Assembly (NCBI GenBank): GCA_017439305.1 | Contig: JAFSJK010000013.1 | Coordinates: forward strand, 1 to 32,463 | Source of the DNA: Bacteroidales bacterium | GTDB lineage: Bacteria > Bacteroidota > Bacteroidia > Bacteroidales > UBA932 | Direction of reading: 5' to 3' | Length of the DNA stretch: 32,463 bases | Shown here: in pieces, positions 5,600-15,063 of the stretch | Layout of the letters: every line of letters starts with the position of its first letter | How positions within the stretch are numbered: position 1 is the first letter of the stretch | The notes under the pieces: model-generated | What the model saw: the letters and a program-made list of their open reading frames with translations, nothing else | Told to the model about the DNA's origin: nothing | Database searches by the model: none | Made by a program: the position numbers and the translations under genes

Positions 5600-6964
5600 A
5601 TGGGAGCATTTCACGCATATGACATCCGCGGTATCTACGGCAAGGACTGGGACCGCGAAACCGCTTACAAGGTCGGATATTTCATCCCCCGGCTGCTGAA
5701 GGCTGACAAGGTCCTGGTGGGCCGCGACTGCCGTGTTTCCTCTCCGGAAATCCATGACGCTGTCATCAAAGGCATCAACGACGCCGGCGCCGACGTGTAC
5801 GACATCGGCCTGAGCTCCACCCCCATGGTGTACTTCGGTACGGCCAATTACGGCTTCCACGCCTCCATCCAGATCACCGCCTCCCACAATGCCGCCCCCT
5901 ACAACGGCATGAAGGTATCCACGACCGACGCCCAGGCCGTCGGCTATGACGCCGGCCTCAAGGAAATCAAGGCCTGGATCGAGGAAGGCGTCCCCACCCC
6001 CGTGGCGGAAAAGCGCGGCAAGGTGTACACGAAAGAGATCCTGGACGACTACATCGCCTTCATGCGCAAGTTCAAGAAGGACCTTTCCGGCATCACCATC
6101 GCCATGGACCTGTCCAACGGCATGTCCAACCTCTTCGCGAAGGAAATCTTCGGGACGGGAGAGAACGTCCACTACCTGTTCGACACCCTGGACGGCACCT
6201 TCCCCAACCACGAGCCCAACCCGCTCATCGAGGCCAACGTCCTGCCCCTGGAGAACCTCGTCCGCGAGGTGAAGGCCGACGCCGGCGTCATCTATGACGG
6301 CGACGCGGACCGCGTGGTCTTCGTGGATGAAAAGGGCGGCTTCATCTCCCCCGACCTCCTTATCGCCCTCATGGGCCGCTACTACGTGAACGAGCGGGGC
6401 CTCAAGGGCATCGTCCTGCAGGACATCCGTTCCTCCAAGGCCGTGGGTGAATACCTTGCCCCGATGGGGTGCAAAATGTACACCTGGAAGGTCGGACGCG
6501 CCTTTGCCGCAGCCAAGCTGCGCGAAATCGACGGCGTCTGGGGCGGCGAGCTGGCCGGACATTTCTACTTCCGCGACTTCTTCTACAGCGACAGCGGCCT
6601 CCTGGCCTCCCTGATCGTCCTTAACATCGTAGCGGACCTCAAGAAGGAAGGCAAGACCCTCAGCCAGGCCATCGCCGAAATCGTCCGCTACAAGAACTCC
6701 GGCGAGATCAACTACCGGGTGGAGGACAAGAAGGGCGCGATGGATGCCGTGAAGGACCATTTCATGGCCCAGGAGAAGGCGACCGCCTTCATGGACTTCG
6801 ACGGCTACCGGATCGAATTCCCCGACTGGTGGCTGAACATCCGTCCGTCCAACACCGAACCTTACCTCCGCTTCCTGTGCGAAGCGACATCCGACGAACT
6901 GCTGCAGCGGAAGATCGCCGAAACCGACGAACTCCTGAAGACCCGCTTCGGCGCAATCCGTTAA
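5600..6964 (+). CDS. Phosphomannomutase/phosphoglucomutase (alpha-D-phosphohexomutase)
   Basis: The 454-aa protein belongs to the phosphohexomutase superfamily, which interconverts hexose 1- and 6-phosphates through a phosphoserine. The active-site loop TASHN places the phosphoserine at S95. The metal-binding loop DGDADR is at 233-238, the sugar-binding GGELAGH near 322-328, and the phosphate-binding RPSNTEPYLR near 421. The overall pattern fits the ManB/AlgC (PMM/PGM) subgroup rather than GlmM, but the substrate cannot be fixed from sequence. It likely supplies activated sugars for envelope polysaccharide. It lies in the yqgF-def cluster. Confidence 0.92.
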   Translation: MGAFHAYDIRGIYGKDWDRETAYKVGYFIPRLLKADKVLVGRDCRVSSPEIHDAVIKGINDAGADVYDIGLSSTPMVYFGTANYGFHASIQITASHNAAPYNGMKVSTTDAQAVGYDAGLKEIKAWIEEGVPTPVAEKRGKVYTKEILDDYIAFMRKFKKDLSGITIAMDLSNGMSNLFAKEIFGTGENVHYLFDTLDGTFPNHEPNPLIEANVLPLENLVREVKADAGVIYDGDADRVVFVDEKGGFISPDLLIALMGRYYVNERGLKGIVLQDIRSSKAVGEYLAPMGCKMYTWKVGRAFAAAKLREIDGVWGGELAGHFYFRDFFYSDSGLLASLIVLNIVADLKKEGKTLSQAIAEIVRYKNSGEINYRVEDKKGAMDAVKDHFMAQEKATAFMDFDGYRIEFPDWWLNIRPSNTEPYLRFLCEATSDELLQRKIAETDELLKTRFGAIR

Positions 6965-6968
6965 GCCA

Positions 6969-8006
6969 ATGCATTTCAAGACGTTACTGACAACCTGCCT
7001 GCTTTCTTCCCTCTGCATCGCCGTGTCCGCCCAGGACAACAGCGCCGATTCCCTGCGCCGTGACTTCGGGCGGATGAGCGTTTCCTCTTCCCGCAGCACG
7101 GGCACCCCGTTTGCCGACACCCTGGACACGGAGAATCCCGGCGTCAAGGTCATCCTGTTCAGCAACGGTACCTTCCGCTACGTCAAGGACCCCAAGGCTG
7201 CCGCTGAAAGCAAGGTGTTCACTGAGCACTGGGATACCCGTGCCGTCAACCCCTACCATGAAGAGAAGTCCCTTCCGGACCGTTTCTCCCTCTGGATCGT
7301 GGATACTTTGGATTCCTATTGCTGCCCCAACAAGACAAGGCCGTCCTCCCAGTTCGGCTACCGGCACGGCCGTCCGCACCAGGGCATCGACCTTCCCTAC
7401 CCCACCGGCACGCCGGTCTACGCCGCCTTTGACGGCAAAGTCCGCGTGTCTGACTATGTGGGCGGCTACGGAAACCTGGTCGTCATCCGCCACGCCAACG
7501 GACTCGAGACCTTCTACGGCCACATGTCCCGCCGCGATGTGGAATCAGGCGACTGGGTGAATGCCGGCGACGTAATCGGCCTGGGCGGCTCTACCGGCCG
7601 TTCCACCGGTCCGCACCTGCATTTCGAGACCCGCTACCGGGGATACGCCTTCGATCCGGCCTGGCTCATCGACTTCGAGACCGGTACACTGCGACACCGC
7701 CTGATGCGTTTCCGCAGCTGGTACTTCAACCCCAACAGCCGCTACGTCATGACCGAAGAGGACGAGGACGAAATCAACCGCGGTGACGAGGAGCAGAAGA
7801 AACTGGCCGAAGAAAAGGCCAAGAAGGAAGCGCAAGCCCGCGCCGCCGCCCAGCGTGCCACCCAGAAGTACTACACGGTCCGCTCCGGCGACACCCTCGG
7901 CAAGATCGCCAAGAAGAACGGCACGACCGTCAAGGCCCTCTGCCGCCTCAACGGCATCAAGGAAACCACCACCCTCCAGATCGGCCGCCGGCTGCGCGTG
8001 CAGTAG
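6969..8006 (+). CDS. Secreted M23 peptidase with C-terminal LysM domain
   Basis: The 345-aa protein has a signal peptide ending near ...AVSAQ (residue 22), an N-terminal region of about 100 residues without a recognised family, and an M23 endopeptidase domain (about 120-240). A charged Lys/Glu/Ala-rich linker (about 262-298) precedes a C-terminal LysM repeat (about 301-345). The zinc residues are intact: H137 and D141 in HQGID, H185, and H216/H218 in HLHFE. It is therefore probably an active peptidoglycan endopeptidase held at the wall by LysM, unlike the M23-like protein at 3685-4530. It starts 4 nt after the mutase stop and is the last gene before a long inverted repeat. Confidence 0.92.
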   Translation: MHFKTLLTTCLLSSLCIAVSAQDNSADSLRRDFGRMSVSSSRSTGTPFADTLDTENPGVKVILFSNGTFRYVKDPKAAAESKVFTEHWDTRAVNPYHEEKSLPDRFSLWIVDTLDSYCCPNKTRPSSQFGYRHGRPHQGIDLPYPTGTPVYAAFDGKVRVSDYVGGYGNLVVIRHANGLETFYGHMSRRDVESGDWVNAGDVIGLGGSTGRSTGPHLHFETRYRGYAFDPAWLIDFETGTLRHRLMRFRSWYFNPNSRYVMTEEDEDEINRGDEEQKKLAEEKAKKEAQARAAAQRATQKYYTVRSGDTLGKIAKKNGTTVKALCRLNGIKETTTLQIGRRLRVQ

Positions 8007-8124: not shown

Positions 8125-9435
8125 CTAGAAACTGAACTTGACCATCTGCTGGATCCGGTGATGGAGGACCCAGTGACCGGACTCGAAGAGGCCGCCCATG
8201 TTGAACGTGCCCTCGCCGAAGAAGGCGCCGGTGCAGTCATATTCCAGGGAGAAGGTCAGGTTTCCCAGGTTGTAGGCAATGGTAGGAGTCGCACGGAAAG
8301 CCCTCTGGATCCGGTTGCTGACGGCATTGTTGAGCCACATCGTACGGATGTTCGCATCGTCGATGCCGAACAGTTTCTTCGTCATTCCCAGGCGCTGCAT
8401 GTAACCGCCCATGCAGGAGATTTGGAACTTCCTGCCGTACTGGAATGAAAGGAAGGAAGCCCAGTCCTGCATCGGTGTATACGTAAGTTCCAGCCGGTTC
8501 CAGTCGAAGGTAGGGCCATATCCCGAGAGAAGGTTCATGTGTTCGCCGGCCTGCGCCAGGACGCTCTTGGCCTTGATCTGGAACTTCCCGCCGGTGAACT
8601 GCAGATAGACATAGGGAGAGACGGCGAAGAGCCTGGTTTCCAATTTCTTGGTAAACACCCGGCTGTAATTCACCGTCCGGTCACTGACGGAAACGTCGGT
8701 GATGGTCGGTCCTATCCAGCCGGGTTTGCTGGAGAACAGGTCCACGCCCGCCTTGCCCAGGAATCCCCCGGCCGCGAAAGATACGCCCAGATACACTTCG
8801 GGAATCATTCCGAACCGATTGTAATCCAAGGTCTTTCCAGATGGGCCGGTGGGAAGGAACTGCATCGGGAAAAGGATGCCGCCCGTCCAGGTGAACTTGT
8901 GCACGGTCCAATGGAACATGACCTGGGGACTCCAGTTGAACGGATTGAAAGGAGATCCCAATTCCTCGTTGGTGACGTGCGGTACATCCACGGCCATCGG
9001 GTGCCAGGTCTGGCCTACATTCACGACCAGGTCTCCCAGAACCAGGTTGTCCCAAAGCATGCTCAGATAGGCCTGGCGCAGACGGAGAGTGGCCGCAGTC
9101 CCATTCAGGGCGTAGAAATCGCCCTCGATAGTGCCGCTGACCTTCGTCTCCCCGACCTGATAACCGGAGGCTCGCACGCCCAGGCGGGAGGTCAGGGCCA
9201 GCATCCGGAAGGAAGGGATGGCGTTCAGGTCCACTTCTCCGGACATCTTCACGTCCTTGGGCATATAGAAGAGGTCCGGGGTACCGGCATCCACCTGACG
9301 CGCATCAAACGTCATGTAGTTGCTGACGAAGCCGTAGGCCTTCACCCTGGCCGGCTTCTCCTCCTGGGCGGAGCATACGACGCCCGGGCCCAGTGCAGAA
9401 AGGGCTGCTAACAGCGAAAGAAGAATCTTTTTCAT
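8125..9435 (-). CDS. DcaP-like outer-membrane porin
   Basis: The 436-aa protein has a signal peptide (cut near ...VVCSAQ) and a C-terminal phenylalanine typical of outer-membrane barrels. The N-terminal pattern follows DcaP-type porins: KAYGFVSNYMTFDAR, then TSRLGVRA, IEGDFYA, LRLRQAYL and VGQTWHP. DcaP of Acinetobacter is a porin linked to dicarboxylate uptake; transferring that substrate here is inference. It is the last gene of the M49-like/SLC13/OprP-like cluster, 35 nt after the OprP-like gene, and ends at the inverted repeat 8021-8080. The family assignment is from remembered motif spacing, not a search. Confidence 0.7.
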   Translation of the reverse strand: MKKILLSLLAALSALGPGVVCSAQEEKPARVKAYGFVSNYMTFDARQVDAGTPDLFYMPKDVKMSGEVDLNAIPSFRMLALTSRLGVRASGYQVGETKVSGTIEGDFYALNGTAATLRLRQAYLSMLWDNLVLGDLVVNVGQTWHPMAVDVPHVTNEELGSPFNPFNWSPQVMFHWTVHKFTWTGGILFPMQFLPTGPSGKTLDYNRFGMIPEVYLGVSFAAGGFLGKAGVDLFSSKPGWIGPTITDVSVSDRTVNYSRVFTKKLETRLFAVSPYVYLQFTGGKFQIKAKSVLAQAGEHMNLLSGYGPTFDWNRLELTYTPMQDWASFLSFQYGRKFQISCMGGYMQRLGMTKKLFGIDDANIRTMWLNNAVSNRIQRAFRATPTIAYNLGNLTFSLEYDCTGAFFGEGTFNMGGLFESGHWVLHHRIQQMVKFSF

Positions 9436-9470
9436 ACAGATGGGTCCGGAAAAAAGTTTCAGCTATACCG

Positions 9471-10517
9471 TTAGAAACGGATATAGGACATGAACCAAAG
9501 CTCGTTGAACTGGGGCGTCGGCAGCAACTTGTTGTTGTGGTGGCGGTACTCGAGCTGGAAGTTCAGGTTCTTGTGGAGACGGAAGTTCAAGCAGCCGGAA
9601 TACATGTCGTGGCTGCTCTCCGCATTGCCATGGGCGCGGAACTCATCCCACTTGAGATAAACCTTGAGCCAGTCGGCCACAGGAATGCCGGCCGTGACAT
9701 ACAGGGCATCGGCGGCACCGCTCTGCTGCTTCTCGCCGGCGATGGCCGTCGCATACTCGGCGCGGAGCGTCCAGTTGTTGACGTCGTATTTGAGGCCGGC
9801 GCTGATGCGCTCCCGTTTGAGGACGTCCCCGGCGGAATTCACCCAATTGCCCTTCCAGCCGAAAGCGCCGATATACAGGCCTTTGATGGGCTGGATCTGG
9901 ATGGTTCCGATCAGGTCCTTCGACTTGTTGGCATCGACCAGGTTGATGCCCTGGCCATTATACAGGCCTAACTGATAATGGAGCAGCCGATACTGGTCAT
10001 CCGCCATCGGGATCAGGTCGCCCTGGACCTGGATGCCCTGGTCACGGCCGCCCATGTTGGCTTCGCCCAGACGGTCCCCCATGCCGGCCATCTTCTGGAC
10101 CAGGAGGGAGAAGTCTCCCACACCCACATCCCAGGGGTTCATCGGATTCTCAAAGGTGAAGGCACGCTTGAACTGGCCCAGCTTGACGGAAAACTCCTTG
10201 TACTTCGCCCACTCGACGAAGAAGTCCTTCACATGGGGGCTGGTACCGTTGGCCTGGAACTGGATGCGGTATTTGAAGTCGTTGAAGATGCTGCCGTCCA
10301 CATACAGACGGATAAGCCGGCAGTTGAATCCGGGACCGCCGTGGGCACCTTCCTGGTCGCTGTACTTGTAGCCGCCGATGATGTAGCCGCCCACCTTGGG
10401 CACGCTGACGAAATCGGTCACTTTATAGCCGTATTCGGGTTTCTGGTTCTCCTGCGCGAAGGCAGAAAAACAGGCTGCGGACAAAAGCGTCGCCAATAAA
10501 ACGATAGTTTTTTTCAT
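9471..10517 (-). CDS. OprO/OprP-type (phosphate-selective porin family) outer-membrane porin
   Basis: The 348-aa product starts MKKTIVLLATLLSAACFSAFAQ (signal peptide) and ends SYIRF, a terminal barrel strand. Its beta-strand pattern resembles the porin O/P family: FNCRLIRLYVDGSIFNDFKYRIQFQ, KDFFVEWAKY, VKLGQFKRAFTFENPM, then alternating strands. Family members are selective anion channels; phosphate is only one known ligand. An in-frame ATG at 10541 exists, but that start would overlap the SLC13 stop region and add eight residues before the signal peptide, so 10517 is preferred. It lies 16 nt after the SLC13 gene, implying linked outer- and inner-membrane passage of one solute. Confidence 0.82.
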   Translation of the reverse strand: MKKTIVLLATLLSAACFSAFAQENQKPEYGYKVTDFVSVPKVGGYIIGGYKYSDQEGAHGGPGFNCRLIRLYVDGSIFNDFKYRIQFQANGTSPHVKDFFVEWAKYKEFSVKLGQFKRAFTFENPMNPWDVGVGDFSLLVQKMAGMGDRLGEANMGGRDQGIQVQGDLIPMADDQYRLLHYQLGLYNGQGINLVDANKSKDLIGTIQIQPIKGLYIGAFGWKGNWVNSAGDVLKRERISAGLKYDVNNWTLRAEYATAIAGEKQQSGAADALYVTAGIPVADWLKVYLKWDEFRAHGNAESSHDMYSGCLNFRLHKNLNFQLEYRHHNNKLLPTPQFNELWFMSYIRF

Positions 10518-10533
10518 ATTCTTGGTGGATTGG

Positions 10534-11979
10534 TTAAGCAAACGGGAAGATCTTGGTAAGCCAGAAGTAGCCGAGGATGAAGCCGATGCAGCCGATGATG
10601 AGACCGATCTTGGTCATATCCTTGGTTTCCACCATGCCGGTCGCCGAAGCGATGGCGTTCGGAGGGGTGGAAATCGGGAACAGCATCGCGATGGAGGCGC
10701 ACACGGCGATGAAGGTGATCATCGCGGAGGTGCCGCCCATGGCCACGAACTGCGCGTTGTTGGCAGCCTCCGGATCGGCCATGCCGTTCGCCACCACGAT
10801 CAGGATCGGGATGAGCAGGGCCGCCGTGGCGGAGTTGGAGATGAAGTTGGAGAGCAGATAGCACACCAGGCCGGCGATGATGAGCACCACCCAGACCTTC
10901 ATGCTGCCGAACGGGATCGCCTGGATCAGGACCTTCGCAAGACCGGTGTCCTGCAGGCAGTATCCGAGGCAGAATCCACCGGCGACGAGCCAGAGGACGT
11001 TCCAGTTGATCTCCTTGATTTCCTCCTTGCCGAAAAGGCCCGTGGCGGTGAAGACACCCAGCGGAATCAGGGCCACGATGTTGGAGTTGATATGGGTAAG
11101 CTGCTCAGTGGCCCAGAGGAGGATCGTGCCGATGAAGGTGATCCATACCACCGTGAGTTTCCAATCCTTCTTTTTGTTGCTCTCAGGGATCTCCAGGACC
11201 AGTTTCTTGGTCTTGAAAGGGAAGAAGACGCGCAGCAGGACCCACGCGATCAGGATCATGATCAGCACGTAGGGAATCATATGGACGCACCACTCGCCGA
11301 AGGAGATGTCGATGCCAGCCTGCTCCAGGGCGCCCTTGGCCGTGGCGTTCGGCGGGGTGCCGATCGGGGTACCGATACCGCCGAGGTTCGCGGCGACCGG
11401 GATGGACAGGGCCAGGCCGATCTTGCCCTTGTCATCGGCCGGAAGCTTGGAGAGCACCGGGGTAAGGAGGGCGAGCATCATCGCGGCGGTAGCCGTGTTG
11501 GACATGAACATGGAGAAGACGGATATCATGATCAGGAAGCCCAGGAGGACGATCTCCGGCTTGGTACCGAAGAGTTTCAGCAGAGCGCGGGCCAGGGTGA
11601 CGTCCAGGCCGTATTTCTCGGCCATGATGGCGAGGACGAAACCGCCCAGGAACAGCATCACCACCGGATCGGCCATGGAGGACATGATACGGGCGTACGG
11701 GACAAGGGTGCCGTACTGCGGGTCGCAGAACAGGCCGATACCCTTGTTGGAAACTGTCAGGAGGGAGATGACAATCACCAGAAGCGAGGTGCTCCAGTTG
11801 GGGATGATCTCGAAGATCCACATCAGGGCGGCAAACACGAACAGGGCGATCACACGCTGCTGGACGACGGTCAGGGCCTCGATGCCGAAGAAGGACACCG
11901 GAACGGCCCAGAGGAAAATGGTGACCAGCAGCACGAGCGGCAGGAAGACACCATACTTGAGATTGAATTTCTTAGCCAT
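10534..11979 (-). CDS. SLC13/DASS family sodium-coupled dicarboxylate/sulfate-type transporter
   Basis: The 481-aa protein is strongly hydrophobic, with about a dozen helices, and fits the divalent anion:Na+ symporter family. The two substrate-binding SNT motifs are visible: SNTATAAMM (160-168) and SNSATAALL (381-389, the third position Ser instead of Thr). Two matching loops, GTPIGTPPNA (around 203-212) and FPISTPPNA (around 435), follow them in the internal repeat. Family members import succinate, malate, citrate, sulfate or similar anions. It is 12 nt downstream of the M49-like lipoprotein gene and upstream of two porin genes, so the cluster looks like an uptake pathway. The exact substrate is not readable. 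Confidence 0.9.
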   Translation of the reverse strand: MAKKFNLKYGVFLPLVLLVTIFLWAVPVSFFGIEALTVVQQRVIALFVFAALMWIFEIIPNWSTSLLVIVISLLTVSNKGIGLFCDPQYGTLVPYARIMSSMADPVVMLFLGGFVLAIMAEKYGLDVTLARALLKLFGTKPEIVLLGFLIMISVFSMFMSNTATAAMMLALLTPVLSKLPADDKGKIGLALSIPVAANLGGIGTPIGTPPNATAKGALEQAGIDISFGEWCVHMIPYVLIMILIAWVLLRVFFPFKTKKLVLEIPESNKKKDWKLTVVWITFIGTILLWATEQLTHINSNIVALIPLGVFTATGLFGKEEIKEINWNVLWLVAGGFCLGYCLQDTGLAKVLIQAIPFGSMKVWVVLIIAGLVCYLLSNFISNSATAALLIPILIVVANGMADPEAANNAQFVAMGGTSAMITFIAVCASIAMLFPISTPPNAIASATGMVETKDMTKIGLIIGCIGFILGYFWLTKIFPFA

Positions 11980-11991
11980 TATCTCACTTGT

Positions 11992-13590
11992 TTATTTTTC
12001 ATAGGTAAAGCGGATGTCCACCGGGATCTTCTCCAGTTCCAGGGACACGATGTCGGCCTCGATGGTCGGAGCCGCGACGACGTATTTGTTCACGAAAGCC
12101 CGGGCGGCGTCGATGTCACCGAGCGCCTGGATCCGGAGGATTTCGGCACCGAGGGATTCAATGGCCTCCCACGTCTTGCCATAATCGATGGAATAGCGGC
12201 CGGAAGCCTTGCGGGCGAACGCGCCTTTCTCGAGCATGTAGTTGTAGACCGCAATGCTGGCCGCACCGGTAGGATCGGCCGCACCGAAGCGGCAGGAACG
12301 GATGATGTTGGCGACGAAGGTGGCCAGCACGTCCTCTTTCTGGATCAGGGCGGAAATACGGTGGGCAGCCACCTCCTGCGCGCACAGATAAGTGCCGATC
12401 ACGTTGGACTTGGCCTTCTCGAAGATGAGCGACTCGTTGCCGAGGGCCTCCCCGACCGTTCCCTTTCCATTGACCGTTTCCTTGACACCCAGTCCCTTGG
12501 CAATCTCTCGGAACACGATGTTCCAATAGAAGGCGCTGGCGTCCAGATGGGACTGGTACGCATCCTCGAACAGGGTCATTCCCACCGGGAAGACGGTCCG
12601 GTTGAATTTCTCGCGGATGATGTTGTCAAACAGGATGGTACGGGTGCCCAGTTCCTCCTGGACCTTCGCATCATACGGGAAATTGATTGCAATCACCTTG
12701 AATCCGGCGTTGGTATATCCGCAGTAGTAAATCACATTGCAGGAGAAGATGTTGGATTCGGCCCCGGGAACAAAGGCATGGTACGCAGGGTCGCCGGGCA
12801 GCATTTTCTGCAGTTCGGGAAGACGGGCGGTCAGGGCGCCCAGTTCCTCGGTGCGCTTGAGATTCTTCAGGAGCACATACGCACCATAAGAGGCTTTTTC
12901 GCCATAAAGGGCATCGTCCACGGCCTCGTTCGGTCCGAGGACGAGGTCCATCTTGCTGTCGGTCATCTCCAGCCAGGCCTTGTCGCTCGCATAATAGTCG
13001 TCCGTCTTCAGGCCGTCGATCTTCTTGAGGAGGTAGTCACGGACGCTCTCCTTGATCGTAATGTCGGCGGCCGCCTGCAGGTAGTTGCAGATCTTGCCGA
13101 TGGATTCGGCATAGGCGTCATGGTACCAGACCGTCTTCAGGGAGTCTCCGTCCCGGACGACCAGGGTGTAGGGGCTGAGCTTGTCCGGATCGGCGAAGGC
13201 GTCGAACTCCTCCGCGGTCATGTCGGCCGGATAGAAACAGGCCCCGGCGGGCTTGGCGCCGTACCCTTCCACGAAAGGCTTGCCGTCAATCCGGTCCCAG
13301 GGACCGTAATTGATTTCGGCGTACAGTTTCGCGGCAGGATCGGAGAGGGAGGAAAGGAGCGCTTCCTTGTCCCCGAAATTCTGCTTCCAGTAGATATTGT
13401 CCACCTCATCCGCGGCGAAGCGGTACAGGTTCAGAACCTCCTTTCCGTTGTCGGTGATGCCCGAAAGGTCCGGAGCGGGAATCGTCACCACGGCATAGTT
13501 CTCCACCAGGCGGGCGGCCTTGGTCCTGTGCCGGTCACAGGAGGTGGCCAGGACGGCGAGAAGAGCCAGTGCGGCTGTCAGTTTTTTCAT
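11992..13590 (-). CDS. Peptidase M49 (DPP III)-like lipoprotein lacking all zinc ligands, probable pseudoenzyme
   Basis: The 532-aa protein has a lipoprotein signal peptide (cysteine 18 in LATSC). Its body resembles the short lipoprotein branch of M49/dipeptidyl-peptidase III-like proteins of Bacteroidota. In active relatives I expect HExxH-GLG followed by EExKAD; here the equivalent residues read R361-E-I-A-K365-GLG and E391-K392-AKS-N396. Both zinc histidines and the glutamate ligand are thus replaced, while surrounding residues (KETVNGKGTVGEAL) are kept. Each histidine change needs two or more base changes from a His codon, so sequencing error is unlikely. It is probably a non-catalytic binding or accessory lipoprotein. 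It heads the cluster with the SLC13 transporter and two porins. Confidence 0.75.
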   Translation of the reverse strand: MKKLTAALALLAVLATSCDRHRTKAARLVENYAVVTIPAPDLSGITDNGKEVLNLYRFAADEVDNIYWKQNFGDKEALLSSLSDPAAKLYAEINYGPWDRIDGKPFVEGYGAKPAGACFYPADMTAEEFDAFADPDKLSPYTLVVRDGDSLKTVWYHDAYAESIGKICNYLQAAADITIKESVRDYLLKKIDGLKTDDYYASDKAWLEMTDSKMDLVLGPNEAVDDALYGEKASYGAYVLLKNLKRTEELGALTARLPELQKMLPGDPAYHAFVPGAESNIFSCNVIYYCGYTNAGFKVIAINFPYDAKVQEELGTRTILFDNIIREKFNRTVFPVGMTLFEDAYQSHLDASAFYWNIVFREIAKGLGVKETVNGKGTVGEALGNESLIFEKAKSNVIGTYLCAQEVAAHRISALIQKEDVLATFVANIIRSCRFGAADPTGAASIAVYNYMLEKGAFARKASGRYSIDYGKTWEAIESLGAEILRIQALGDIDAARAFVNKYVVAAPTIEADIVSLELEKIPVDIRFTYEK

Positions 13591-13719: not shown

Positions 13720-15063
13720 TTAGATCGTTCCCTGCTCGAGCATGGCCTGGGCAACCTTCATGAAGCCGGCGATGTTCGCGCCCTTCACGTAGTCGACGGT
13801 GCCGTCCGGCTGGGTGCCGAACTTGACGCACTGCTCGTGGATGGACTTCATGATGAAGTGGAGTTTCGCATCCACTTCCTCGCCGCTCCAGCTGATGTGC
13901 TCCGCGTTCTGGGTCATTTCGAGACCGGAGGTGGCGACACCGCCTGCGTTCACGGCCTTGCCCGGCGCGAAGAGGATACCGTTGTGCTGGAAGAAATGGA
14001 TGGCACCCGGCTGGCAGCCCATGTTGGACACCTCGCAGCAGCACCAGCAGCCGTTGGCAGCCAGTTCCTTCGCATCATCCTCGGAGAGTTCGTTCTGGAA
14101 GGCGCAAGGGAGGGCGATGTCCACAGGGATGGACCAGGCCTTCTTGCCGGCGGTGAAGAACGCCTTGTCCGGGAACTTGGTGGCCATGTCCTCGACCAGG
14201 TTGCGGTTGGAGGCGCGCATGACAAGCATGTAGTCGATCATCTCCTTGGTGATGCCGTCAGGCATGTGGCAGACACCGTCCGGACCGGAGATGGCAACAA
14301 CCTTCGCGCCGAGCTCCTTGGCCTTGGTGGCGGCACCCCAGGCGACGTTGCCGAAGCCGGAGAGGGCGATCTTCTTGCCCTTGATGTCCTTGCCGGCCTT
14401 CTCGAGGAGGTGCTGGGTGAAATAGAGGGCGCCGAAGCCGGTGGCCTCCGGACGGAGGATGGAACCGCCCCAGGTGCCGCCCTTGCCGGTCAGCACGCCG
14501 GTGTTGTACTGGCGGGCCAGCTTCTTGTACATGCCGTACATGTAGCCGATCTCACGGCCGCCCACGCCCACGTCGCCGGCAGGGATGTCCTGGTCGGGAC
14601 CGATGCAGTTCCAGAGCTCCAGCATGAAGGCCTGGCAGAAACGCATGATCTCGTCATTGGACTTGCCCACGGGGTCGAAGTCGGAGCCGCCCTTGGCGCC
14701 GCCCATCGGCAGGGTGGTGAGGGCATTCTTGAAGGTCTGCTCGAAGCCGAGGAACTTGAGCATGGAAGGGGTCACAGCCCGGTGGAAGCGGAGACCGCCC
14801 TTATAGGGACCGATGGCGCTGTTGAACTGGATGCGGTAGCCGAGGTTCGTCTGGACCTCGCCCTTGTCGTCGACCCAGGTCACACGGAAGGTGAAGATAC
14901 GGTCGGGTTCGACCATCCTTTCGACAATCTTCGCCTTCTCAAACTCCGGATGCTGGTTATAGACCTCTTCGATGGATTCGAGGACTTCCTGCACGGCCTG
15001 AAGATACTCCTTCTCGAGCGGGTACTTGGCCTGGAGTTTCGCCATAATGTCTTGTGTTTTCAT
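13720..15063 (-). CDS. gdhA: Glutamate dehydrogenase (hexameric class, probably NADP-dependent)
   Basis: The enzyme makes glutamate from 2-oxoglutarate and ammonium, or the reverse, in the cytoplasm. The 447-aa length is that of the hexameric bacterial class. YKGGLRFH (87-94) and PMGGAKGGSDFDP (119-131, catalytic lysine K124) form the substrate site, PDQDIPAGDVGVGGREIGYM follows, and the nucleotide fold contains SGFGNVAWGA. The NADP preference is inferred from similarity to GdhA-type enzymes. It is transcribed alone, between a full promoter (15156-15126) and a strong terminator. A palindrome in the leader may regulate it. Confidence 0.95.
   Translation of the reverse strand: MKTQDIMAKLQAKYPLEKEYLQAVQEVLESIEEVYNQHPEFEKAKIVERMVEPDRIFTFRVTWVDDKGEVQTNLGYRIQFNSAIGPYKGGLRFHRAVTPSMLKFLGFEQTFKNALTTLPMGGAKGGSDFDPVGKSNDEIMRFCQAFMLELWNCIGPDQDIPAGDVGVGGREIGYMYGMYKKLARQYNTGVLTGKGGTWGGSILRPEATGFGALYFTQHLLEKAGKDIKGKKIALSGFGNVAWGAATKAKELGAKVVAISGPDGVCHMPDGITKEMIDYMLVMRASNRNLVEDMATKFPDKAFFTAGKKAWSIPVDIALPCAFQNELSEDDAKELAANGCWCCCEVSNMGCQPGAIHFFQHNGILFAPGKAVNAGGVATSGLEMTQNAEHISWSGEEVDAKLHFIMKSIHEQCVKFGTQPDGTVDYVKGANIAGFMKVAQAMLEQGTI

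Follow-up and report, generated by a model that had tools for sequence, protein, structure and literature searches.

The contig JAFSJK010000013.1 was analyzed at its full length of 32463 bases and is called the window here. It belongs to a 2.99 Mb draft genome of a rumen, Candidatus Cryptobacteroides-like lineage. Four of its genes form a unit: they encode a lipoprotein related to the M49 peptidases (M49L), a secondary anion carrier of the DASS family, an OprP-like porin and a DcaP-like porin. We propose that M49L is a dead peptidase reused as a periplasmic, probably ligand-capturing, subunit of the carrier, and we give this reading a probability of about 0.6. Its parts differ in strength. M49L very likely works with the carrier as a functional partner subunit, and the odds that ligand capture is its job are about even. 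The material compared comprises draft genomes and metagenome-assembled genomes (MAGs) only; genomes are cited by G numbers and loci by L numbers.

On homology, M49L is a short-type dipeptidyl peptidase III (DPP III) homologue over nearly its full length. It matches the Caldithrix abyssi enzyme (6eom) with an E value of 7.4e-71 over residues 9-529 of 532, and 5zum with an E value of 7.2e-59 over residues 27-530. The Pfam model Peptidase_M49 (PF03571) gives 21.1 bits with a cut-off of 21. From the homology to 6eom and 5zum alone, M49L would have a two-domain clamshell fold facing the periplasm. In the C. abyssi enzyme (CaDPP III), zinc is bound by His379 and His383 of the HEISH motif and by the second Glu in EECKAD (PMC5805324; the papers cited in this text are used for the passages that concern the point at hand). 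The window protein reads REIAK and FEKAKSN instead, with all three ligands replaced. An earlier, preliminary description of this DNA had called it a degenerate peptidase, which is correct. An active zinc peptidase is rejected because the ligands are absent.

The same description left room for a surface lipoprotein. The export signal of Bacteroidetes surface lipoproteins is K-(D/E)2 or Q-A-(D/E)2 (PMC5080379). No such acidic cluster follows the lipobox cysteine in the window (CDRHRTK). Likewise, 38 of 42 RxxK/Q copies and 72 of 76 RxxH copies with a recognized lipobox have at most one acidic residue at +2 to +6, a proxy count and not the motif itself. In this regular-expression survey, the three genus-set fusions entered in trimmed form and counted without lipobox, and several other unmatched rows visibly carry the cysteine. 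A surface location is thus not supported by the proxy, and we rejected it.

We collected 197 M49L copies, corresponding to 169 distinct sequences longer than 480 aa. The zinc motif is intact (HExxH) in 28 and reads RxxH in 87, RxxK or RxxQ in 52 and otherwise in 2. In a wider sample of 295 Bacteroidales genomes, the 30 best-match loci had a readable motif in 28 cases, and 26 of these were HExxH, so the intact form looks widespread. The remaining two are the window's own RxxK and an RxxH copy from G349, of another family, beside a YidE-type carrier. Degenerate forms were seen in the window genus, in G349 and in some MAGs titled Bacteroidaceae, Prevotellaceae or Paludibacteraceae.

The degenerate copies are associated with carriers. 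A copy was considered linked when it lay at 700 bp or less from, or was fused to, a DASS gene or a gene of the YidE/AspT type. By this measure, 123 of the 139 distinct degenerate copies are linked (8 of them as fusions) versus none of the 28 intact copies. The linked RxxH copies are 73 of 87 (41 with DASS, 32 with the YidE type), and the linked RxxK/Q copies are 50 of 52 (47 and 3, respectively). Contig edges account for 2 RxxH, 1 RxxK/Q and 3 intact copies, and neither carrier is near 12, 1 and 25 copies. The second carrier scores 655 bits with PRK03818 ("putative transporter"; cut-off 449), which we take to be YidE. It stays below the AspT equivalog cut-off (246 vs 547). Seen from the other side, M49L adjoins the carrier or is fused to it in 22 of 109 rows of DASS1, the type of the window, and adjoins it in 18 of 32 rows of a second type (DASS2) and in 24 of 113 YidE-type rows. 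The carriers are common and often stand without M49L; therefore, the link runs from M49L to the carrier. We consider the M49L-carrier partnership well supported by these gene neighborhoods. The preliminary description had noted neither this tie between zinc-site loss and carriers, nor the fusions described next, nor the glutamate dehydrogenase gene nearby.

Eight distinct fusions join DASS and M49L in a single open reading frame (ORF), three in the 121 genomes of the genus set and five in named MAGs. They are found at L101 (G088), L104 (G085), L123 (G107), L159, L160, L203, L205 and L208. The contig start cuts the 5' end of the L159 fusion, and the seven complete fusions were measured. The rows L134_8001 and L151_7944 (532 and 534 aa) were excluded from the count. 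In the complete fusions, the DASS homology extends to residue 481-483, which corresponds to residue 480 of 481 of the window carrier, in the last helix. From residue 483-502 of the fusion onward, the match is to M49L, starting with its residue 17-32, and 1-18 residues lie between. Since the M49L part starts there, the lipoprotein signal and its cysteine are gone. The fusions occupy two places on the tree (six rows at 99* and two at 100*), the first of which brings long branches together. In VcINDY, TM10b ends in the cytoplasm and is followed by TM11, and the final residues pack close to TM10a, which starts at the periplasmic face (PMC7553777). We deduce from this layout that the DASS C-terminus should lie in the periplasm together with the M49L fused to it, which would be joined to the mobile transport domain.

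These data also bear on the alternative that the neighboring genes share an operon for regulation only, with no joint action. Bacterial operons often contain loosely related genes, and DASS1 and its porin occur without M49L. However, the degenerate copies are linked to carriers of two families at the frequency given above, and the eight fusions sit in two tree places. We find this alternative hardly credible.

The M49L tree, built on 154 of the 169 rows with the active-site columns blanked, puts every degenerate copy to the same side of a 99* branch. On this tree, 6 changes are required for the class label and at least 22 for the neighbor label (DASS, YidE type or neither). Intact and degenerate forms never occur together in the 74 draft genomes with classed copies (19 intact, 55 degenerate). 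The ancestral enzyme therefore appears to have been converted, instead of being kept beside a copy. The degenerate copies reach up to 3 per genome.

Nine loci show a sandwich, in which an RxxK and an RxxH copy flank one DASS2 gene (L025, L027, on the same contig as L144, L057, L059, L063, L139, L157, L175 and L193). It is as if two different partners served one carrier. By eye, LysR-type-regulator-like genes stand beside some M49L copies (L057:11048-11992 and L161:6974-7858).

We then consider the former active site. The pocket was defined as 18 positions of the substrate and zinc site of CaDPP III (PMC5805324), hand-mapped through the alignment, plus His460. Its mean net charge is -7.1 in intact, -3.2 in RxxH and -1.1 in RxxK/Q copies, and the rest of the mature protein has means of -15.0, -19.5 and -18.3. 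When 20000 column sets of matched acidity and conservation were drawn, none shifted as much. His460, presumably the equivalent of His568 in human DPP III, is present in 28 of 28 intact copies and in 0 of 139 degenerate ones. Asn321 of CaDPP III binds the peptide N-terminus (PMC5805324). Its counterpart, Asn303, is kept in all 139 degenerate copies, and Glu240 (Glu222 in M49L) in 129 of them. Of the 141 copies whose motif is not intact, 139 have Arg361, although residues 361 and 365 are also what defines the classes. The RxxK/Q copies show Lys392 in 50 of 52 and Tyr292 in 48 of 52.

M49L could still be an enzyme, with changed chemistry or another metal site, that frees the carrier substrate from peptides or conjugates in the periplasm. 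Glu380 of the zinc motif, which we take to be the catalytic Glu of DPP III, is kept in 139 of 139 degenerate copies. The RxxH copies retain one His, and the Glu ligand in 72 of 87, and the degenerates are under purifying selection. However, all 52 RxxK/Q copies lack both zinc His as well as the Glu ligand, and His460 is lost in every degenerate. It makes a surviving enzyme very doubtful.

The ratio of nonsynonymous to synonymous substitutions (dN/dS) was 0.05-0.16 in 9 degenerate M49L pairs, indicating purifying selection. Pseudogene decay was rejected with these values. One decayed remnant exists: a 114-aa ORF at L124:5245-5589, between gdhA and DASS in G060, matches M49L residues 1-75 and looks like the remains of a lost partner.

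The carrier itself was assigned to the DASS/SLC13 family by TIGR00785 (240.3 bits; curated cut-off 198.6). Its first substrate motif, SNT, is intact, and the second is SNS. The genus set (121 genomes, including that of the window, many incomplete) was searched with each gene and gave 109 DASS1 rows at 512 bits or more and 56% identity or more. A porin was counted as directly behind when it shared the strand of DASS1 and no more than 500 bp separated the two (2 kb for DcaP behind OprP). There is one behind 98 of the 109 rows: DcaP only in 79, OprP only in 17 and both in 2, namely the window and G017. The median gap from DASS1 to porin is 28 bp. The 11 rows with no direct porin include three fusions, where the porin follows the fused gene; G067 and G119, which end at the contig end; G077 and G116, where a porin of the set lies beside DASS1 in another orientation; and G090, with a DcaP fragment at 502 bp, just past the limit. 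No porin was found beside DASS1 in the second copy of G083, in G109 or in G113.

As judged from gene order, the core unit is a DASS carrier with an outer-membrane porin directly behind it, and M49L is an optional add-on. This supports the route of anion carrier and porin seen in the preliminary description. The combination of two porin families is not the rule: they look like alternatives, and a required pair is rejected with both behind only 2 of 109 rows. Two tandem DcaP genes occur in 8 units (G020, G049, G058, G065, G087, G098, G105 and G108), so a second porin is not rare, though units with both families are uncommon. On the DASS tree, at least 7 changes of porin type are needed, an approximate value, since two M49L rows (L134_8001 and L151_7944) were miscalled as DASS there. 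DASS2, about 50% identical, has a downstream porin in 1 of its 32 rows. Its second substrate motif is SHS in 30 of 34 copies (e.g., L027:9201-10664) instead of SNT or SNS, which may mean altered ion coupling or specificity.

The porin names rest on different matches. The OprP-like protein scores 24.1 bits with Porin_O_P (cut-off 20.9), a partial match of residues 62-124, and higher, 42.7 bits, with Porin_4, also above the cut-off. A PDB search with this protein or its profile found no chain. The DcaP-like protein alone has no Pfam match up to E 1, and a PDB search with it was unproductive. A profile of 27 homologues matches the solved DcaP-like 6eus at E 1.1e-6 (positions 64-178 of 424), and 4 of the 27 match Pfam DcaP (PF19577), which the window protein alone does not. 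So, the DcaP-like label holds at the profile level.

If M49L is a ligand-capturing subunit, a porin of the DcaP or OprP type would bring the ligand across the outer membrane. The periplasmic clamshell would capture a small anionic ligand (candidates are a carboxylate, an acidic amino acid or a short acidic peptide) in the former active-site cleft. DPP III is known to close upon ligand binding (PMC5805324). M49L might then hand the ligand to the outward-facing DASS, or gate the carrier, and the Na+-driven elevator movement of DASS would carry the ligand inward. Genome comparison shows the pairing of porin with carrier and of M49L with carrier; capture, ligand identity, direction and Na+ coupling are what we infer here. 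The likeliest candidates for the ligand are a C4/C5 dicarboxylate and an acidic amino acid or peptide. C4-dicarboxylates are known substrates of bacterial DASS proteins (PMC5413979), and by analogy the dicarboxylate-like substrate guessed earlier is plausible. A literature search on DcaP and dicarboxylates returned nothing relevant. Of the 109 DASS1 genes, 70 have a glutamate dehydrogenase gene at 4 kb or less (stronger dehydrogenase rows only), which is only a hint on the ligand.

The opposite direction has to be weighed too. The unit could export a fermentation acid such as succinate, with M49L as a regulator or periplasmic sink. Succinate is made by rumen Prevotellaceae (PMC8516057), and some DASS proteins are exchangers (PMC7553777). 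Nevertheless, a periplasmic clamshell partner and a dedicated porin would fit uptake better. Besides, the first SNT motif is retained in DASS1, whose score is that of a DASS symporter. We regard export as improbable.

Several observations weigh against M49L as a ligand-capturing subunit. Twelve RxxH copies have neither carrier nearby (L026, L035, L072, L081, L082, L086, L088, L099, L161, L165, L187 and L204), and the nine viewed have varied neighbors. Conversely, 87 of 109 DASS1, 14 of 32 DASS2 and 89 of 113 YidE-type rows have no M49L. The sample is biased, as 80 loci were chosen for likeness to the window protein. Zinc loss and carrier linkage trace to one branch; therefore, their association is not replicated independently (the test gave only 2 independent pairs). 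The three metal ligands themselves make up about 3.8 of the 6.0 charge units by which the RxxK/Q copies shift, and the charge null treats columns as independent. Intact pairs are under tighter selection (dN/dS 0.02-0.06; n=5, with dS partly saturated), and the adjacent DASS is more constrained than the degenerate M49L in 8 of 9 pairs. Finally, according to the relevant passage of PMC8652582, purified VcINDY binds neither aspartate nor glutamate, while some other DASS proteins interact with them. Acidic amino acids are therefore only one option.

Some of these points suit another role. M49L could be a non-binding ancillary subunit that stabilizes, targets or regulates the carrier, and the pocket changes could reflect the mere loss of the enzyme. 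Animal SLC7 transporters, which carry glucosidase-like SLC3 heavy chains, are a model for it. Fusion and linkage fit this role equally well. The many DASS1 genes without M49L, the single partner type serving two carrier families and the weaker constraint than in intact copies also agree with it. On the other hand, new residues are fixed in the former pocket (Arg361, Lys392 and Tyr292, at the frequencies given above) and Asn303 is kept throughout, so plain decay is a poor account. A purely ancillary subunit is possible, although we think it unlikely.

Among known systems, TAXI-GltS, proposed in 2025, is by analogy the nearest precedent in logic to a dead peptidase serving a carrier. In Bordetella pertussis (BP0403; PMC12344293), as here, a lipoprotein partner goes with a Na+ elevator-type carrier whose family was not known to rely on a binding protein. 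Natural fusions exist in both cases, theirs in other bacteria. The TAXI protein is N-terminal to GltS, whereas the dead DPP III is C-terminal to DASS and also occurs beside YidE-type carriers. BP0403 was shown to bind glutamate (PMC12344293), while M49L is a putative ligand-binding protein. With DASS as carrier and M49 as partner, the unit falls outside TAXI-GltS.

TRAP systems (DctPQM/SiaPQM, PMC9971032) also join a carrier subunit of the DASS fold to a periplasmic binding protein. They differ in that the partner here is of the M49 family, and in that DASS proteins form dimers and TRAP membrane parts are monomers. The Pfam matches of M49L contain no DctP or TAXI protein; of the two matches, only Peptidase_M49 passes its cut-off. 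The window carrier reaches 20.3 bits with DctM, below the cut-off of 23.8. TRAP membership was rejected on this score and with no DctP/TAXI-type partner. According to the TAXI-GltS authors (PMC12344293), the only secondary carriers known before 2025 to depend on a soluble binding protein were the TRAP and TTT families. The best reading, by analogy, is a unit that resembles TRAP and TAXI-GltS but has another origin.

The short-type DPP III of Caldithrix abyssi and Corallococcus (6eom, 5zum; PMC5805324, PMC9820243) are homologous to M49L over nearly the full length. In contrast to them, M49L has neither the zinc ligands nor most of the acids that hold substrate side chains, and no peptidase activity is expected. 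VcINDY and SLC13 share with the window carrier the DASS family and SNT-type substrate motifs, but the second motif here is SNS (DASS1) or mostly SHS (DASS2). VcINDY is not known to work with a partner protein. The SLC3-SLC7 heteromers likewise attach a dead or altered hydrolase ectodomain to a carrier; they differ in their folds, their occurrence in animals and their trafficking role. Among the matches listed, we found no open-access literature linking DASS and DPP III.

If the reuse as a subunit is true, an enzyme turned partner, with its intermediates (intact, one His lost, all ligands lost) and its fusions surviving in present-day genomes, would show how such systems arise. It would also give a role to rumen Bacteroidales lipoproteins that family searches name M49 peptidases. 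The M49L copies are soluble proteins open to direct expression and testing.

The features of the locus are listed in Table 1. The four genes follow one another with gaps of 12, 16 and 35 nt, so the ORF coordinates bear out the order and spacing first described. The nearest named relative found, the rumen MAG RUG12336 (L137), has the same gene order, with identities of 96% for M49L, 96% for DASS, 90% for OprP and 92% for DcaP. The order M49L-DASS-OprP-DcaP is found again in L135, L136 and L137. Seven MAG loci (L171, L172, L179, L184, L185, L189 and L196) have an M49L-DASS-OprP module, with 55-56% identity in M49L and 76-80% in DASS; three are titled Bacteroidaceae or Prevotellaceae. The neighborhood in relatives had been set beforehand as a test that could refute the single unit. 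The genes are neighbors in these relatives, so the test does not refute it, and the conserved unit is supported by this recurrence. The M49 tree joins L213 (Candidatus Cryptobacteroides merdigallinarum) to a copy found in one genome of the window genus.

Table 1. Coordinates of the four-gene unit, the M49L motifs and the flanking signals in the window.
Feature	Position	Strand	Basis or remark
M49L lipoprotein gene	11992-13590	minus	ORF, 532 aa
DASS carrier gene (DASS1 type)	10534-11979	minus	ORF, 481 aa
OprP-like outer-membrane porin gene	9471-10517	minus	ORF, 348 aa from ATG
DcaP-like outer-membrane porin gene	8125-9435	minus	ORF, 436 aa
M49L lipobox LATSC, Cys18	13537-13551	minus	sequence and regular-expression survey
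REIAK (residues 361-365), replacing the zinc motif HEISH/HExxH	12496-12510	minus	alignment
EKAKSN (residues 391-396), replacing EECKAD; third ligand (second Glu) is Lys392	12403-12420	minus	alignment
Bacteroidales-type -7 box TACCTTTG	13631-13624	minus	upstream of M49L
Intrinsic terminator-like hairpin behind upstream gdhA	13700-13671	minus	12 pairs and T run
Terminator-like inverted repeat between DcaP and convergent M23 peptidase gene	8021-8043/8058-8080	no strand	23 nt, 96% complementary
Glutamate dehydrogenase gene gdhA	13720-15063	minus	frequent neighbor of DASS1 units, not claimed as a subunit

The unit was said to have its own -7 box and a terminator on each side, and such signals are present: the box, the hairpin behind gdhA and the inverted repeat. 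We take TAnnTTTG to be the -7 consensus of Bacteroidales. It occurs 16 times in the window versus 4.5 expected by shuffling; therefore, it is useful for promoter calling there. The motif stands at -35 to -41 in 8 of 9 printed M49L upstream regions, including that of the window. It also lies between -110 and -15 in 51 of 80 DASS-adjacent M49L copies with enough upstream sequence, not all of which are first genes. On the minus strand, the search inside the four genes gave no further match. A terminator scan of the window found 4, not above shuffles (mean 4.7). Downstream, at 5600-8006, the window has phosphomannomutase-type and M23/LysM peptidase genes; such genes border the DASS1 unit, facing either way, in many relatives.

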